Source: a virus
DNA: 20,989 bases
IMG/VR virus record: IMGVR_UViG_3300006919_000580
Location: 1 to 20,989 of that record
Reading direction: 5' to 3' (one strand)
Position numbers and translations under genes: made by a program. Below are positions 620 through 19,600 of this stretch, one piece after another. Position 1 is the first letter of the stretch, and every line of letters starts with the position of its first letter. Below the pieces are notes generated by a model. It saw nothing but the letters and a program-made list of their open reading frames with translations. It ran no database searches and had not been told where the DNA came from.

Positions 620-1138
620 ATGAGCCTTGTAGCAAATCAAGAAATGCAAGTGACCGAAGAAGACAGAATTGAACTTCAGTCCCATTACCCATACGCCGGA
701 GTTAAATTGTCCGAGCTTTCTGTACAAGAAGAAAGGCTAGTTTTGTTTCATTTGAGAGGACTAAGTAAAGCTGCAGCTGGACGGGCGGCAGGCTACCGCA
801 ACATGGATCATGTGTACGAGGTTTTTAAAAAACCAAAAATAGAACAAGCAATCGGGTACCTAAGAGAAGAGATGCGTGAAGAGGTCAGGTTCGATCGAAA
901 CACGGCCACCACCATGTATCTTGAGGCTCACCGAAAATCGGCCACCGCCACAGAAGAAAAAAACGTGGTCGACTCCTTATGTAAACTACATGGGCTATTC
1001 GCTCCTGAACAAGCGACCCAGGTCAATATAAATGTAGACAAGATCCAACAACTAGAACGGTTGCCGGATGCCGAGCTTTTAAAACTAGCTGGCGTAGACA
1101 CTTCATACTTAGAACCAAAAGGAGATAACAATGACTAA
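620..1138 (+). CDS. terS: Terminase small subunit (172 aa)
   Basis: Small terminase: recognises phage DNA for packaging and hands it to the large subunit encoded downstream. Evidence: an N-terminal helix-turn-helix-like region around residues 34-75 (SVQEERLVLFHLRG ... AAAGRAAGYRN, then a KKPKIEQAI helix), followed by a helical oligomerisation-like part (about 76-128) ending in the typical KLHGLFAP. Length is usual for the family, and it opens the operon that contains TerL. The ATG at 620 has no Shine-Dalgarno; the next in-frame ATG (644) has none either, and the candidate promoter ends only six bases upstream, so leaderless translation is plausible. The 3' end overlaps the next small gene by eight bases. 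Confidence is good on family features and context; the exact start is less sure. Confidence 0.8.
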   Translation: MSLVANQEMQVTEEDRIELQSHYPYAGVKLSELSVQEERLVLFHLRGLSKAAAGRAAGYRNMDHVYEVFKKPKIEQAIGYLREEMREEVRFDRNTATTMYLEAHRKSATATEEKNVVDSLCKLHGLFAPEQATQVNINVDKIQQLERLPDAELLKLAGVDTSYLEPKGDNND

Positions 1139-3857: not shown

Positions 3858-5975
3858 ATGGCATACAGAAATAAAACTAAAAAGAAGTTAGATAAAGGGG
3901 AAGAACTTACACTAGCAAAAACCCAGTGGAACTCATACACACGTGCGCGAGACAACGGCCACGAAGACTATGTGCAACTGGCAAAAAAATGCGATATGTA
4001 TTATCGCGGAGACCAGTGGGATGAGTTCGATATGCAAGAACTCGATGATCAGGGCAGACCTGCTCTAACCATAAATACCATCTTACCTACGATCAATGCT
4101 GTGCTCGGAGAACAGAGCACGAAAAAAGCAGATATAACATTTAAACCCAGAGGCGGTGGCAACCAAGATGTTGCTGATGTTCTAACAAAAGTTTACCAAC
4201 AGGTAGCAGACAACAATAAGTTAGAGTGGGTAGAGAACCAAGTATTCTCTGATGGGTTGATCCAAGACAGGGGTTACTTTGATGTGCGAATAGATTTTTC
4301 TGACCACATACAAGGGGAAGTTAAGATAGAGGCAAAAGACCCGTTAGATATTCTTATAGACCCAGATGCAAAACACTACGACCCAAGAACTTGGAATGAG
4401 ATATTTGAAACCAAGTGGATGAGTGTTGAGGAGATAGAAGAAACATACGGGCAAGACCAAGCAGACAAGTTAAGAATGTTAGCAGAGACAGGTACAACTT
4501 TGGGCGCAGACTCTATGGAGTTTGAAGAAGAAAGGTATGGAGATACTGACGAATACAATTACGGACAACAGTACCCTGGGGATCCTGAAAACGCACGTAT
4601 GCTTAGGTCGATAAGAGTTATAGAAAGACAATATTATAGACTTAAAGATTGCATGTATTATTTAGACCCAGTAACAGGCGACATGCGAGATGTGCCTCAG
4701 AACTGGACTAAAAAGAAAAGAGAAAATTTTGCTGATCAGTATGGGTTAGATATTTTAACTAAGACAGTTAGAAAAGTACGTTGGACCGTTACAGCTGACA
4801 CAGTTGTACTGTTTGATGATTGGTCTCCCTACAAACATTTTACGATTGTGCCCTACTTCCCGTACTTTAGACGCGGTAAACCATTCGGTATGGTACGAAA
4901 CTTATTATCTCCACAAGAGCAACTTAATAAAATTACTTCCCAAGAACTGCATATAGTAAACACAACTGCAAACAGTGGTTGGATCGTAGAGAACGGTTCT
5001 CTTTCAGGCATGACTGCAGATGATTTAGAAGAACACGGAGCAGAGACTGGGTTAGTATTAGAGTTTAACCGTGGTTCATCGCCCCCTGCGAAGATACCAC
5101 CCAATCAAATACCTACGGGCTTAGATCGATTGGGTCAAAAAGCTGCGGCAAATATTAAACAAATAAGTGGTATTACTGATGCTATGTTAGGTCAAGACAG
5201 CGCGGAAGTATCTGGCGTAGCCATACAAGCTAAACAAAACAGAGGGTCTATGCTTTTACAGGTACCCCTTACTAATTTAGCTAAGTCTAGACAGTATTTA
5301 GCAGAATCTATACTTGATTTAATACAGGGGTATTATACAGAAGAGCGTGTTATACAAATAACTGACGAATCTGATCCGTATAAACCAAGAACACAACTAA
5401 GAGTAAATCAAATGACTCCAGAAGGGCAAGTTATTAATGATTTACAACTAGGAGAGTACGACGTAATAGTATCAAATGCACCTGCTAGAGATAACTTTGA
5501 TGAGATGCAGTTTGCTGAGGCCATATCTTTACGTCAAGTTGGAGTGCCAATACCGGACGATATGATAGTAGAGTACTCACACTTGTCACGTAAAGCGGAT
5601 GTTGCTGATAGGATAAGAAAAATGCAGGGTACTGCTCCTCCAACACCTGAACAAATACAACTACAACAGTTCCAAATGGAATCACAAATCAGAAGCACGC
5701 AGCTTGAGATTGCTAAGCTAGAGGCAGAGGTTGCTAACTTGCAAACACAAGCAGCTGTGAATGTTGCTAAAGTAGATCAAATAGAAAACGAACCACAGTT
5801 GAAGATTGCAGAGTTACAGAGTAAACTGCAAACTAAACGAGAAGAACTCGATTTACGTGAGAGATTGTCATCATTGACAAACGATATGCGTAAGGAACAG
5901 AGTGACACAGCAGCGGCGTCCAAGATGGCCGTCGAAGCTCTTAAAAACTTAGACACCACAGGAGGTACTCAATAA
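3858..5975 (+). CDS. Portal protein, P22 type (705 aa)
   Basis: Dodecameric portal at the special vertex, through which DNA enters and leaves. The N-terminal part (about residues 49-88, YYRGDQW ... GRPALTINTI ... INAVLGEQ) is characteristic of P22-like portals, followed by a DPLDILIDPDA motif and a clip/stem region around GITDAMLGQ with a following SGVAIQAKQNRG. The C-terminal 100 residues (about 597-690) are a long Gln/Glu/Lys helical coiled-coil-like stretch, consistent with the barrel of P22-type portals, which are of similar length (P22 gp1 about 725 aa). It sits between TerL and scaffold as expected, and its stop overlaps the scaffold start. The identity is sure from motifs and context. 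Confidence 0.92.
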   Translation: MAYRNKTKKKLDKGEELTLAKTQWNSYTRARDNGHEDYVQLAKKCDMYYRGDQWDEFDMQELDDQGRPALTINTILPTINAVLGEQSTKKADITFKPRGGGNQDVADVLTKVYQQVADNNKLEWVENQVFSDGLIQDRGYFDVRIDFSDHIQGEVKIEAKDPLDILIDPDAKHYDPRTWNEIFETKWMSVEEIEETYGQDQADKLRMLAETGTTLGADSMEFEEERYGDTDEYNYGQQYPGDPENARMLRSIRVIERQYYRLKDCMYYLDPVTGDMRDVPQNWTKKKRENFADQYGLDILTKTVRKVRWTVTADTVVLFDDWSPYKHFTIVPYFPYFRRGKPFGMVRNLLSPQEQLNKITSQELHIVNTTANSGWIVENGSLSGMTADDLEEHGAETGLVLEFNRGSSPPAKIPPNQIPTGLDRLGQKAAANIKQISGITDAMLGQDSAEVSGVAIQAKQNRGSMLLQVPLTNLAKSRQYLAESILDLIQGYYTEERVIQITDESDPYKPRTQLRVNQMTPEGQVINDLQLGEYDVIVSNAPARDNFDEMQFAEAISLRQVGVPIPDDMIVEYSHLSRKADVADRIRKMQGTAPPTPEQIQLQQFQMESQIRSTQLEIAKLEAEVANLQTQAAVNVAKVDQIENEPQLKIAELQSKLQTKREELDLRERLSSLTNDMRKEQSDTAAASKMAVEALKNLDTTGGTQ

Positions 5976-9526: not shown

Positions 9527-10201
9527 ATAGCAACTTATACTTCTTTAGTAAAAGAAATCTTACCTTACGTGCCTTTGTGCCCTGATTCTTTAGTTGAACA
9601 GAACATTAGATCCGCGACTATAGAATTTTGCGAGAGATCAAAGGCTTACATACTAGATATGGACCCATTCAACACCACTGCGGGTGTTTATGAATATGAT
9701 TTTGATATTCCAGTAGCTACAGAAGTACATCAAGTTTTATATATGACTCACGATGGCAATGATATGGACCCTATTAGTCCCCGTAGCCTAGAGTTAAACT
9801 ATCCAGACTGGAGAAATAGAACAGGCAGCCCGCATGTTTACTTACAAAAATCTTCTAGTTTGTTTTGGATAGTGCCCGTGCCAAGCGGGTCTAAAGAAGT
9901 TATTGCTAGTGTGGCTTTAAAACCAACTAGAACCAGCAATAACATTGACAGCACAGTTTCTAATCAATACAGAGATGCAATTATTTATGGTGCTCTATAT
10001 AGACTACTTCGTATGCCTAACAGAGAGTGGACAGATATAGGTGCGGCTAGAGAATATTTAGTACAGTTTAATGGTGAAATAATACAAGCAGAACTTCGTG
10101 CAAGAGGCGGGGACCTGGGCGTAAAACGGACCGTAAAATACAAAGGAATAGGTAAGCCAAGGAGGCGCTATGGAAGATACGGAAGGGAGATCGACTACTA
10201 A
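9527..10201 (+). CDS. Head-tail connector / tail-completion protein with apparent AUA start (224 aa)
   Basis: A second neck protein: helical N-terminus (ATYTSLVKEILPYV, CPDSLVEQNIRSATIEFCERS), a beta domain with YEYDFDIP, and HVYLQKSSSLFWIVPVP, then a helix block DAIIYGALYRLLRMPNREW, as in phage neck proteins. The start is odd: the only ATG/GTG-type codon at the head is GTG 9569, with no ribosome site, which would remove the first helix. Instead, GAGGAG (9515-9520) lies six bases before ATA at 9527, and the 14 residues it adds fit the expected N-terminus; the frame is closed by TGA at 9509. So AUA initiation is proposed. Stop lies inside the next gene (32-base overlap). Confidence 0.75.
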   Translation: MATYTSLVKEILPYVPLCPDSLVEQNIRSATIEFCERSKAYILDMDPFNTTAGVYEYDFDIPVATEVHQVLYMTHDGNDMDPISPRSLELNYPDWRNRTGSPHVYLQKSSSLFWIVPVPSGSKEVIASVALKPTRTSNNIDSTVSNQYRDAIIYGALYRLLRMPNREWTDIGAAREYLVQFNGEIIQAELRARGGDLGVKRTVKYKGIGKPRRRYGRYGREIDY

Positions 10202-10619
10202 TGACTTTGTCGAACCAGTGCTTAGTGACATACGTTCCACGTGGAACATTGTTAGACCTGGTATCGAAAGTATATTAGCAGACAACCCAAGTCTAACCTT
10301 TATTCCCGAAGATGTTTATAGTGATTGCGTAGATGAAAGAGCGTTTTTATTTACCTCACCAATCGGGTTTTTAGTACTTACTATAGATATAGATAGGTAC
10401 ACAAAAGACAAGACATTGTATATGTGGATAGCGTATACTTATAAAAAAGGCGGGCATGAGTGGTTAGCTCACCAAGATTGGATTGAAGACCTAGCTAGGA
10501 AATCCGATTGTAAGTATATAGAAGCACAATCTCATGTACCTGAATTGGAACCGTATGCAATAGCAAAAGGCTGGCATACTGATACAAGGATATATAGGAG
10601 AACAGTTAAAAGTGAGTAA
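10170..10619 (+). CDS. GNAT-like protein (149 aa)
   Basis: Overlaps the previous gene by 32 bases; AGGAGG at 10160-10165 supports the ATG. Residues 42-146 follow the order of a GNAT acetyltransferase fold: beta strands (AFLFTSPIGFLVLTIDID, LYMWIAYTY), a loop with K-K-G-G (92-95) where the acetyl-CoA-binding RxxGxG/A is expected, a helix (HEWLAHQDWIEDLARKS), a strand (KYIEAQS), and an AIAKGWHTDTRIYRR ending of the 'Y..GF' type. The cofactor loop is poor, so it may be structural or inactive. P22 carries a GNAT-like head-assembly protein, so a structural role is possible. The gene also contains an exact parS core at 10234-10247. Function is tentative. Confidence 0.6.
   Translation: MEDTEGRSTTNDFVEPVLSDIRSTWNIVRPGIESILADNPSLTFIPEDVYSDCVDERAFLFTSPIGFLVLTIDIDRYTKDKTLYMWIAYTYKKGGHEWLAHQDWIEDLARKSDCKYIEAQSHVPELEPYAIAKGWHTDTRIYRRTVKSE
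10234..10247. promoter_or_regulatory. parS-like site (GTTCCACGTGGAAC)
   Basis: A perfect 14-base palindrome that equals the core of bacterial chromosomal parS sites (GTTnCACGTGnAAC), the loading site of ParB. It lies in codons 22-26 of the GNAT-like gene, where it also encodes amino acids. The flanking bases (C before, A after) are compatible with the 16-base consensus at the 3' side. No parA or parB gene is in the window, so if used it would bind host ParB or a ParB encoded elsewhere on the phage. Confidence 0.5.
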
Positions 10620-13657: not shown

Positions 13658-16600
13658 GTGGCTATTACTACAGACTCAATCACAAGGATAAAAGAAGGCG
13701 ATTTAGCAAGAAGAACTAGCGACCGCGCGGATTTTAAAAACCCACAACAAGGCAGTCTTGCCCGACCAAGCGTAGAAAGAGTAGAGCCAATAGACACTTT
13801 GGGTGAAGCTTTCGGTGCAGGTATAGATTCTGGTATTAGAAATATACAGGCGCAAAATCAAAACTTTTTAGCCGCTATAGATACACTTAGAGGAAAAGAT
13901 GTATCTGCACGTAATAGGTTGCGCGAAGCAGATTTTCTTGAGGGCCAAGCAGGAGCACCATTGCGTGGGCTTGAGTCAGATTTTGCTAGTGCCTTAGAAG
14001 AGGGTAACGTGCATGATTTTTTTCTAAATACTGTTTCAGCCACGGGGCAATTCATACCTTCTTTAGCTGCTAGTTTGGCTGAAGCTGCTGTTGTAGGCGG
14101 TGTTGTAGCCGGTGGTACTATATTGTCTGGTGGTACTGCAACTCCTGGGTTATTAACAGCCGCAGCTGCTGGAACAGCGGCCCGAAGGGAAGCCGTAGAA
14201 GGTGGAGTAAAAACTTTACAACGAAGGAAACCTGGTATAGATAAAGCGGATGTAGAAGACCTACTTAATAGATCTTACAAAAATCAAATTAGAGTCAATG
14301 CTGGTAAACAACCTTTACACAAATTTTCAAAAGAAGAACTGCGTAACTTAGACGATATCTACGGGGTTATGCGTTCTAACTTGAGGGGCAAAAGGTTTAC
14401 TCAAGGTGCAGTTTTAGGTGCATTTACCCAAGAACAAAGAATGGGTACTGGTATAGCATTTAGTGATTATGTTGACCAAGGCATGGATAGTAAACAAGAT
14501 GCTATTAACTCTATACTTCAGGGTTCGGCTTTTGGTGCTATTGGAGTTGGTGCTGAAGCTTTAACTGCTGTAACTACTTTTAGGGCTTTTAAAAGACCAG
14601 GCAGGGTTAAAAAAGCTGGGGCGACGGACCCATTTAAGTTTGATCCTTTACCTCCAGGCAGCATGTTTAAAGACTTTGCTTCAATAAGTGCGGTTACATC
14701 TGCTTCTGAAGGCCTTGCTGAACTGCTACAAGAAGAGCTGTCCGTGCAACAGAAGTTCAGGATAGACGACACTTACACGAAAGCCCAAGCAAAAGTAGAT
14801 AGGGTAAACGCCTTGTTTGCAGGTGTTATGGGGGGTTTAGGTGTTGGTGGTGGTCTAGGTGCAGGTACTGCTGTTATAAACAAAGCTAGAAACCTTTCGC
14901 AAAGGGGTGCCGCTGAACGTGAGATGATGCGTATTTTTTCAGATAGAGAGTTCCAAGCATCTATAGGCGCAGTTATGGGTGAACGCGCTGGGGCCTTAGA
15001 AACTCAGTTTGATTTTATTAAAAACGAAAACTCTGGAGCAAGAAGTGTATTTGTTCCCATAGAGGCGAAAGGAGAGTTTGCAAAGATACAAGACAAAGTA
15101 GAAGCTATGTTTGGTGAGAATGAGTTGTTTAGCGTTTCTACACCCACAGGGGTTTTCTTTACAACTGATCAACGTGCTGCTGGCAGGCTAGCAAATATCA
15201 TGGACAGTGGTTATAAGTATGACACTGGGATTTTAGAAGGATTCTTAGCAAAAGAACTTGGCTTTAGCAGAGGCAGAGACCCTAGAGATGACATAGTAGT
15301 TGGTCTTTTTGATAACGAAAAAGGTGAGTTTGTTAAGTACCAATCTGCTAGAGAAGATGTAAAAGGCGATGCAGAAGCTGCGCAAGCAGCCATGAACAAA
15401 ATAAGAGCGGCCATGGACCCAAAGAGGTACACAGTAGAAACTCAAAGTTTGGCACAACACAGAAAGTTTAGACAAGAAGGACTGCCAAAAGATGCTGATG
15501 TATTAAAAGCTACCAAAGAGGCTTTCGAAACAAGCGATATGTCTGAGATGGGAACCAGTGACGATGATGCTGGAGTAGAAGGGGACAGAGGGACTCAAAA
15601 CCTAGATGTAACAGCAGCCAACATTGACATAAGAAAGAACAAAGTGCCCCCAACCCAGAGAGCGCAGTTTGATGCTTATCTTAAAGACGTTTACAAACTA
15701 CCAATTAACTTTAGTGATCTTGTTTTCTTCATAGACCAGACACGAAAGCTTTTATTAAGTGGGCGACAAACTACGCAAACTACTACTGAAGGGCAATTAA
15801 ATGTTGCGTCAGTTGAACAATTACAAGGCGAATTAGATCGTGCAAAGCAAAGACTTGAAGAACTATCTTCTGAAGAAACTTTTGAAGCCTATGAGCAAAT
15901 AGAAAATGAAACAGAAAGAAAGAACAAAGTAATAGAAGATCAAGCTTTTGACCAAGAATTGAGAGCAAACATAAAAGCTTTAGAAAGCACAATAAATTAT
16001 TTAACTAAAGGAGTAGGGCGAACTCTTGTTTTTACTGAACAGCAAGTGCAAGAACTAAAACAAGCTAACCTAGAAGTAGCTCGGTCAGAGCTTAAAAATA
16101 CTCCCGAGGCTTTAAGGTCATTAGGCACAACAGAAAAAAAGAAAGCAGGAGAGGAAATAAAAGCTAAATATGCTAGGGCAGATGCCGCAAGAAAAGCGGG
16201 CGTAAAACCAGCAGCTACAAAAACATTAGATGCAGTAGGCAAACCGGGATCAAATACAAGAGCTAGGTATTCAGAAATATATGGTGAGTTAATAAACGCA
16301 GAAAAAAACGCTGGCCCACTTAACGCAGACGATAGGGCTTTCTTACAAAGAATGAACTCTGGGGGTCTTGAACGTATAGCTTTTGAGTTAGATGGGGTGT
16401 TACAAGAGATAGTCGAAGAAGGAGCACAACTACAACAATCGGATTCTATCGAAAGCAGTATAGCTAGAGATGAGTTTGGTAGCAGAGAAGTTACTAACGT
16501 GCCTTTGATAGGAGTTAGTGAAGTTTTAAGTAGAACCAATGTTGAGTTAGAAAGACCAAACCCAAAAGACTTTAAAAAAGGCAGGAAAGACAAAGCTTAT

Positions 16601-19600
16601 ATAAAACAACTTGCTGATTTTAGAGCCGCACAAAGAGAAGCTAAAGCTCCTATAAAAGAACAAGACCCAGTCGTTATGGCTAAAAAAGGTTCGGGTACTG
16701 TACAGAATCCATTTGTAGATCCAAAGACAGACAAAGGGTTTGAAATATCAAAAGGTGATCCTAAAGCAGATGGGCGTTCTATTGCTGGATTAAATACATT
16801 TATACATCCTACTCTAAGGGCTGAATTTGAAAGCCAAAAACCTTTTTTATCTAAAAGAGCAGTACAAACTTTTAGAGATAAAGCCAAGATAGAAAGAGAA
16901 GAAACTAGCGAAACAGGGTTCTTAAGATTTGTAGATGTAAGAGATCTAAGAGATTTAAGAACAGCAACAGCTAATAATCAACCTTTTGTAGCACCTGAAA
17001 GACCAGTAGTTACTAAAACTAAACCTAAAGCTAAACCCGCTAAGAAAAATGTACCGTTTAAAACTTTTCTTAGAAACAACAAACTTGATCCTAAAGCGGT
17101 AGGAGTTGCTGAACTAAGAGACAGATTAGATAAAGGCACTTTTAGTTATACAAAAACTGGTGGTATGGGGGTTGACCAGTTGATAGAAGCCGCTGTAGAT
17201 GCGGGTTACTTAAGAGAAGATAACGCAGGACCACAAGGCCAAAAAACATACACTGTAGATGATATTGTTGAGTTAATTGATAGTAATGCTACACCACTAG
17301 CAGACCAGGAAGCTTCTTTTGAAGCTCAAGATGAAGCGCGTAGATTAGAAGCAGAAGGGGAACAAGAAGTAGAGCAAGAAGTAGAGCAAGAAGTAGAGGA
17401 ACCTACACAAGATACCAGTAGAAGATATGTAATAGTAAGGATGAAGCCTGACCCAGAACAGTTTAGAGAGATTACTAGAGAAAATGTTGATACCCTTAGA
17501 AACATACGTGCAGATCTTCAGATAAGATTAGATCAAGCGCACGCAAGAACTAGGTCTGGTACTTATAAGACCCCAATACATTTTAAATTACAAAACTTAA
17601 ACCCAGAAGCTAAGAGTAGAACCCCAATCAATATAGATATGTCAGTTTTACTGGAGGGTATTTCTACTTTATCTAAAATAAAACAACGTAGACAACCTGA
17701 AGAGTACACGAACCAAGCCGCACAGAGAGTCGCATCTTTATTAGATGCAATAGACATACTGCAAGAAAACAACTTTAAGCTTGAGTACTACCCGTTAGGT
17801 GTAAAAGAAGATGCAGTCTTCACTATGACAGGGGGCAAAAAGAAAAGCGACATAGAACTAGGAGCCGCTCTTGATGACATCATCTCTCAACCAGATGGGC
17901 CTGGGGCAAGTATTCTTAGAATTACAATGCCTAAAAAATTTGAGGGCGAGTTCGCTCAACAAGTAGCGTATCTACGACAGCAGTTTGGTCTTCCAAGACT
18001 AGCTAGTGGTTTTTTTACAAACGATAGATTTGCAAAAGTAAACGTTCCTTTAAAAGATTTAGTGTACGAAGCAGGGCCCACACCTTTAACTGCTGGTATG
18101 AACCCTGCATATATTGTGCCTTTAATACAAAATATTGAAGCTAATACTATGCAAGAAATGACTCTACAAGAACTAGAAGATCTTGCGGCTAGGGCTGAAG
18201 ATGCTTTGAGTGTTAGGTATGCTGCAGTAGATAAAGATTCTAAAAAGACACCCGGTGAAGTTAAAGACTTGTACGGAGAAGTTCAAGCCCAAGACAGGAC
18301 CATAATGCAGTTTTTAAATGAAATAGGTAAGGTTATAGCTGCTATAAATAGCGCAGATATAAGAAATGAGCCTGGCGAATTACAAGAAATATCTGCTCCA
18401 TTAGGACAACCTGTTACGAGGGATGTAGCGTTTGGTAGTCCTACAGGTGAAGTAGAAATAAGACAACAACAAGTAAATGTACCTGCTAACAGACCTAATT
18501 TAGCTTTTAGAGGGGCTGGCGGTAGGATTGATAGAAATGTACCAATAGAAACTTATTTAGATGACCTTCAAGCAATCGCTATAGAAAGAGCCACTCCTTC
18601 TATAGATGAGACCGGTATGTATAATCTAGACGCTCCTTCTGATACCCAGATTACAGATAACTCTGCTATAAAGATGGACATACAAGATCGAAACTTGTTT
18701 GAGTCTTATCAAGAACAACAGGGTAAAGAATTTAGGGGTAGAGATAGATACGCAGATTTAGCAAGAGCAGGTAATATAAAACCAACTTTTAAAGATAATA
18801 CGAAGTATCAGAAGGTTACAGCGGTATACCTAGGTAATGTCATACAACAAAAAGCCAATAAGCTAAAAGGTATAGATACTCCAGCACCTACTACAAGAAC
18901 AAGAGCAAACCTACCCTTTAGAAAACAAATAATAACCAACATGATTGGCGCAGCTAGGAACTTAGGCCTTACAACAAACCTGCATGTGATTGCAGCTGAG
19001 GAAGGGTACAGTGATTCTCAACTGCCTCCTAGAATTAAAAATGCAATAGACCAAAAAAACTTTGATACTAAAAGACAAGACTTGTTAAATCGACCAGATA
19101 AAGTTGCTATGACTCTGCAGTACAGAGACTTTGATATTATTTTAGTAAAAACTAATCCAAACATAGCAGAAGGCCAATATTATTCTGCATTCTTAAAAGA
19201 GTTAGGTAACTCTTTAACTTTTCAAGAACTAGAAAAAAGTTTAAAAGTTCCTGCAACTAGGAAGAAAATATTGCAGGCGTACGAACAAATATTAAAAAGT
19301 GACAACGTGCCCCCAACTTACACTAACGATGACACGGGCATAGAAAACTTTATGGCTGATCAGTTTGGTGTAGCTATAAGAAAAGAACTGGGCATAGAAG
19401 TTGATGGCACAGTGTTTGACAGTATGAATAAGCCCACTCAGGCTTGGTTCAAACGGTTAGCCAAGTCACAAAAGAAAATGTATGACCAATCAAAAATCTT
19501 TAGAAAACGTACAGAAATAGATGAGACTTTCCAAGAGTATGCAGCTGACTTGCAACAGAAACTTGTAAACCCAGAGAATCAACAAGTCCCATACAAAACT

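Follow-up and report, generated by a model that had tools for sequence, protein, structure and literature searches.

Chromosomal ParB proteins bind parS, load onto the DNA in a CTP-dependent manner, slide along it and are linked to ParA and SMC. A phage can apparently profit from such a protein: according to Meijer et al. (EMBO J, 2005), the host Spo0J (ParB) reportedly takes part in the trapping of phi29 DNA in spores. The ParB of Pseudomonas aeruginosa binds, in vivo, both parS and the GTTCCAC half-site (PMC10419367). Extrachromosomal prophages, for example those of mycobacteria, have parABS systems of their own (PMC7157519). Literature searches turned up no publication that deals with parS in virulent phages, the phi29 study having been outside their reach.

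The DNA analyzed here, the window, is a 20,989-bp IMG/VR fragment of a marine, podovirus-like phage of about 63 kb, a distant relative of Pseudomonas phage KPP25; records of the phage group reach 56–64 kb. It carries a 14-bp palindrome, GTTCCACGTGGAAC, that is identical to the parS core of the chromosomal ParABS of Pseudomonas and its relatives. Each of these chromosomes has several such sites, close to oriC, whereas the window has a single one, in a late operon without parB. As in the extrachromosomal prophages (PMC7157519), parS is on phage DNA; theirs is served by self-encoded partition proteins, unlike that of the window phage group, in which neither ParB_N nor HTH_ParB was found. The preliminary description had seen no par genes near the site, and the relatives bear this out: ParB_N (PF02195) was absent from all 16 relatives searched, and HTH_ParB (PF17762) from 11 relatives and from KPP25. 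A self-encoded phage ParABS was considered and set aside, both searches for ParB having come back empty.

The closer parallel is phi29 (NC_011048), which has four TGTTTCACGTGGAACA sites matching the 16-bp parS consensus TGTTNCACGTGNAACA; annotated genes contain or overlap three of the four. It is a virulent phage with parS-consensus sites, some in genes, and no ParB_N was found in the phi29-like phage Goe1. The window phage also has parS without a ParB of its own, and its virulence is likely, judging from the families listed for a near-full-length relative (G008). They differ in that phi29 uses sporulation and its four sites are T/C hybrids; the window phage has one C-type site, is marine and has no known spore context. 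With a probability of roughly 0.66, we read the palindrome as a cis-acting parS of host type that would load host ParB on phage DNA without a phage ParB.

The palindrome and the gene that carries it

The features of the window to which the text refers are the following.

620 to 1138, plus strand: terminase small subunit (terS)
3858 to 5975, plus strand: P22-type portal protein, about 39% identical to that of Kochitakasuvirus KPP25 and used to place the phage
9569 to 10201, plus strand: upstream neck/adaptor-like gene (Pfam SU10_adaptor, phrog_437), overlapping the start of the next gene and not the palindrome
10170 to 10619, plus strand: 149-aa gene carrying the site; phrog_610, of unknown function, GNAT-like by one annotated match
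10234 to 10247, no strand assigned: palindrome GTTCCACGTGGAAC, identical to the parS core and unchanged in 38 of the 40 relatives that have at least 73% amino acid identity
10401 to 10441, plus strand: second ultra-conserved DNA block, ACAAAAGACAAGACATTGTATATGTGGATAGCGTATACTTA, in the same gene, with a weak sigma-70-like match (AAGACA-N18-TATACT)

Other genes in the window encode a major capsid protein of the phage capsid_3 type, SU10-adaptor-like neck proteins and the large terminase.

The exact palindrome reported at 10234–10247 in the preliminary description is present, in one copy in the 20,989 bp. Its rarity had been put at about 1e-4 for the exact form and below 0.01 for the degenerate form, and both estimates hold at the composition of the window, where GTTCCACGTGGAAC is expected 4.1e-5 times and the degenerate pattern GTTNCACGTGNAAC 1.0e-3 times. 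With up to three mismatches to GTTCCACGTGGAAC, the sole further match in the window is at 5669, and dinucleotide shuffles average 0.44. Core and flanks together, CGTTCCACGTGGAACA at 10233–10248, agree with TGTTNCACGTGNAACA at 15 of 16 positions, the mismatch being C in place of T at the first base. By its match to the consensus (core exact, 15/16 with flanks), the site belongs with parS of the chromosomal type.

The same description called the carrier a structural gene. That term calls for caution: the gene does lie within the portal/capsid/adaptor operon, but phrog_610, a family without assigned function, is the only match of its product (E=3.5e-7). A tblastn search of cultured phages with this product gave a single match, annotated as an acetyltransferase. 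Dual coding with the overlapping upstream gene was entertained as a cause of conservation. It is ruled out because the overlap ends at 10201 and the palindrome begins 32 bp beyond it.

The block at 10401–10441 exceeds the parS site in DNA conservation. All 19 non-redundant relatives of the gene agree over the first 27 bp of the block, and 39–41 of its 41 bp are kept even at 61–69% amino acid identity. The promoter-like match within it is near chance level; the block may possibly be an internal promoter or a packaging or regulatory signal.

Conservation among relatives and the array upstream of terS

Relatives of the carrier gene numbered 58, of which 40 have at least 73% protein identity. Of these 40, 38 keep the exact 14-mer, and none has a synonymous variant of it. 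Of the two exceptions, L007 has one change, which alters the protein (T to M; the natural variant of this type is GTTCCATGTGGAAC), and L033 has lost several positions. Loss of the palindrome with retention of the amino acids had been named in advance as the observation that would count against a function in the DNA. When this comparison was made, all relatives that encode R-S-T-W-N proved to have the identical 15 bases.

Three comparisons extend this result. The first was restricted to genes that have the site: across 29 distinct ones, the five R-S-T-W-N codons show no synonymous change, while variation is seen in the codons next to them. Among 19 non-redundant genes, a set not selected for the site, the 14-mer is kept in 17; other 14-mers from the gene are kept in a median of 4/19, and the block at 10401–10441 is the only part that is better kept. 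A 3.5-kb alignment with pairwise identities of 66–94%, its members again selected by presence of the site, has invariant runs longer than 8 bp only at CGTTCCACGTGGAACA and at that block, which appears as runs of 27 and 13 bp. The DNA of the site is conserved beyond its coding content, and on this ground too it belongs with parS.

That the site was retained solely for R-S-T-W-N, with the match to parS arising by chance, had been offered as an alternative. The reading frame had been given correctly (CGT TCC ACG TGG AAC in the ORF at 10170–10619), and the peptide itself is conserved in the clade. However, the 38 relatives lack any synonymous variant while neighboring codons change, and lineages in which the amino acids change have mostly lost the whole motif. 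Given R-S-T-W-N and the codon usage of the phage, the choice of codons, three of the four being uncommon, has P = 3.3e-4. For the clade as a whole the codon analysis refutes retention for coding alone, which we regard as very improbable.

On the gene tree, presence and absence of the site are scattered, forcing at least five changes, with several lineages lacking it; this pattern fits an old site that was lost several times. In some near-full-length relatives (57–58 kb), even a search allowing one mismatch finds no site. The records of 12 of 16 relatives have a single match to the degenerate pattern, each time as GTTCCACGTGGAAC. In record G010 the gene is without the site, and the full 16-mer TGTTCCACGTGGAACA is found between genes, upstream of terS. 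The distribution would fit a site kept by selection and yet dispensable. The site is real and under selection, and it is probably functional; its sequence and the selection on it give the host-ParB reading good support.

The region upstream of terS has a repeated structure of its own. An intergenic array of GTTCCAC/GTGGAAC half-sites lies about 0.6–2 kb upstream of terS in relatives, which is beyond the left end of the window. Nearly all relatives with enough upstream DNA have 3–11 copies within 600 bp, with conserved spacing. In examples such as L264, L286, L293 and L329 the half-sites are highly ordered, in direct and inverted orientation. Exact palindromes occur within the array in seven loci and core-altered versions in others. 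The base preceding GTTCC in the array half-sites is G in 153 of 186 cases; array palindromes are flanked by T..A, as is typical of parS, and the gene site by C..A. The array may be an origin, a control region or a series of half-parS sites for ParB.

Because the clade carries this intergenic array, GTTCCAC may be a motif of the phages themselves. The palindrome would then be an outlying copy of a phage operator or iteron, two abutted, inverted GTTCCAC half-sites for a phage-encoded protein that also binds the array, as an origin or for early/late control, and identity with parS would be a coincidence. This is the main rival reading, and we think it unlikely. It draws on the conservation of the array in nearly all relatives with that region and on a sister clade that has the full palindrome inside the array, with core-altered versions elsewhere; in addition, the gene site and the array palindrome were never together in any record seen, which is suggestive only. 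Although the 7-bp half-site is common to both, the gene site does not share the half-site consensus when the flanks are included: these differ, being G in the array half-sites, T..A in the array palindromes and C..A in the gene site. The gene site is also solitary, about 10 kb from the array, and KPP25 has a full parS, while the 17.9 kb of it that were examined contain no cluster of half-sites. Moreover, P. aeruginosa ParB binds GTTCCAC half-sites too (PMC10419367), and the array could therefore be a ParB target as well.

parS in the KPP25 group and in other phages

The P. aeruginosa phage KPP25 has a single exact GTTCCACGTGGAAC, which lies within the full TGTTCCACGTGGAACA at 16588–16603. This site is right at the stop codon of the scaffold gene, before a terminator hairpin, and the major capsid gene is next. 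The region is 98–100% identical in the three sister phages phiR18, CRPAP1904 and R4900a. The exact motif has thus recurred independently, at an unrelated position and in a phage whose host has a ParB known to bind it. Five other records are without the site; four of them have a related portal and one is the only tblastn match of the carrier gene. The KPP25 group (Kochitakasuvirus) resembles the window phage in having one GTTCCACGTGGAAC and a related portal, and no ParB was found in KPP25. It differs from the window phage in that its site is the full 16-mer, is intergenic between the scaffold and major capsid genes, and is outside a gene of the phrog_610 type.

A padded 18-mer BLAST search over 50,697 phage records, in which a match was at least 17 of 18 bases, returned 41 records with the C-type 18-mer ATGTTCCACGTGGAACAT and 198 with the T-type ATGTTTCACGTGAAACAT, where about 0.3 would be expected. 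Two control palindromes had zero matches in the same records. Among the T-type matches, the short unannotated pieces named ‘Listeria phage LM 4-...’ are to be discounted as apparent bacterial contamination. Independent cases are fewer than records because many of the matched records are near-copies of each other. The inovirus bajarodino 3 (PQ006097) has six copies in 6.2 kb; Pseudomonas phages XD2 (PQ288046) and Ep020 (OQ603351) have four each, and there are three each in Roseobacter phage DSS3P8 (KT870145), Xenohaliotis phage pCXc (KY296500) and Butyrivibrio phage Arian. ParB_N was not found in 12 of 14 parS-bearing cultured phages checked; bajarodino 3, XD2, Ep020, DSS3P8 and pCXc are examples with several copies and no ParB_N found.

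Klebsiella jumbo phages have an exact parS inside a baseplate wedge gene, for example at 62492–62505 in RaK2 (JQ513383). The Klebsiella chromosome is not known to have ParB or parS. Since a few of the parS-bearing phages infect Klebsiella, exact matches would not all be put to use by the phages that carry them; in these phages the sites may be due to chance or be aimed at the ParB of plasmids or of other hosts.

In IMG/VR, the parS 16-mer gave at least 120 matches, compared to 0 and 54 for two control 16-mers. Since one control gave 54, the case does not rest on these counts. A scan of viral contigs gave a better internal signal: the parS flanks T..A are present on 35 of 81 14-mers, and 14-mers flanked by C..A, as in the window, are hardly enriched (8/81). 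Of 40 such contigs from IMG/VR, none had ParB_N.

Proposed loading of host ParB on phage DNA

The preliminary description had also thought of a role in a prophage. This is not borne out by the families listed for G008, among which there is no integrase or repressor, and because of this a lytic life is more likely. The cargo of G008 (L180–L183) is unusual for a podovirus-like phage. It includes CsgG- and CsgF-like curli secretion genes and a gene of the CHASE2/guanylate-cyclase type, together with PLOD-type and family-25 glycosyltransferases and three 2OG-Fe(II) oxygenases.

With respect to the host, related portals are found on five contigs of metagenome-assembled genomes (MAGs), whose bins are assigned to three different phyla or simply to Proteobacteria, and no host is claimed from them for that reason. 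The marine gammaproteobacterial MAG TMED226, which has a related phage contig, carries GTTCCACGTGGAAC between recF and gyrB, although binning does not prove it to be the host. A Neomarinimicrobiota MAG with a related phage has T-type parS sites. What is shown is that bacteria with this type of parS exist in the habitat of the phage.

If the palindrome does load host ParB, the events following infection may be pictured as follows. The chromosomal ParB of the host would recognize the palindrome on phage DNA, load as a CTP-dependent clamp and slide to neighboring phage DNA, giving a partition complex on the phage genome. Host ParA and/or SMC could then handle the phage DNA. The likeliest benefit would be that phage DNA is positioned, or kept and inherited, in slow infections of poorly growing cells. 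A similar benefit has reportedly been proposed for phi29 and Spo0J. We infer both the benefit and the binding by the window phage's own host. Counting against host ParB loading as the explanation are the C in place of T at the start of the 16-mer, the dispensability of the site, the half-site array of the clade, the weakness of the IMG/VR counts and the parS-bearing phages of Klebsiella.

The benefit might also be of another kind. The site could recruit ParB as a decoy or roadblock, acting through titration, through local transcription, or by shielding or tethering the DNA against nucleases or SMC-type defenses. This is compatible with ParB loading and draws on the same facts; as the benefit obtained, it is given the smaller share and seems rather unlikely. 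The KPP25 site adjoins a terminator between the scaffold and capsid genes, where a clamp could affect transcription, and in P. aeruginosa higher ParB levels reportedly strengthen repression beside parS3/parS4 (PMC5521831). The positions of the site vary between phages, which argues against an effect on local transcription, and a single site would be a poor titrator against the several of the host, except at high phage copy number.

Returning to host ParB loading with a benefit in the handling of phage DNA, the use of host ParB by a phage has a precedent because of phi29, and the broader pattern merits systematic study. It is tentatively proposed, at odds somewhat short of even, that the trait of having a host-type parS and no ParB is widespread and has evolved repeatedly in phages of ParB-bearing hosts, in tailed phages as well as in filamentous inoviruses and microviruses. 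By this means virulent phages would borrow host ParB clamps, and through these ParA/SMC, so that their DNA is kept, placed or passed on in the absence of lysogeny. The window would then be a marine case, with its site preserved within the coding sequence of a gene. A filter that uses only sequence finds many further phages with parS, and the KPP25 group, with its single site, is testable in P. aeruginosa with existing ParB tools. If host ParB does load onto the genomes of phages, those that are virulent and have no lysogeny genes could be kept, placed or inherited by means of the host segregation machinery. This would bear on the persistence of infection in slow-growing marine cells and would offer a mechanism for carrier states.
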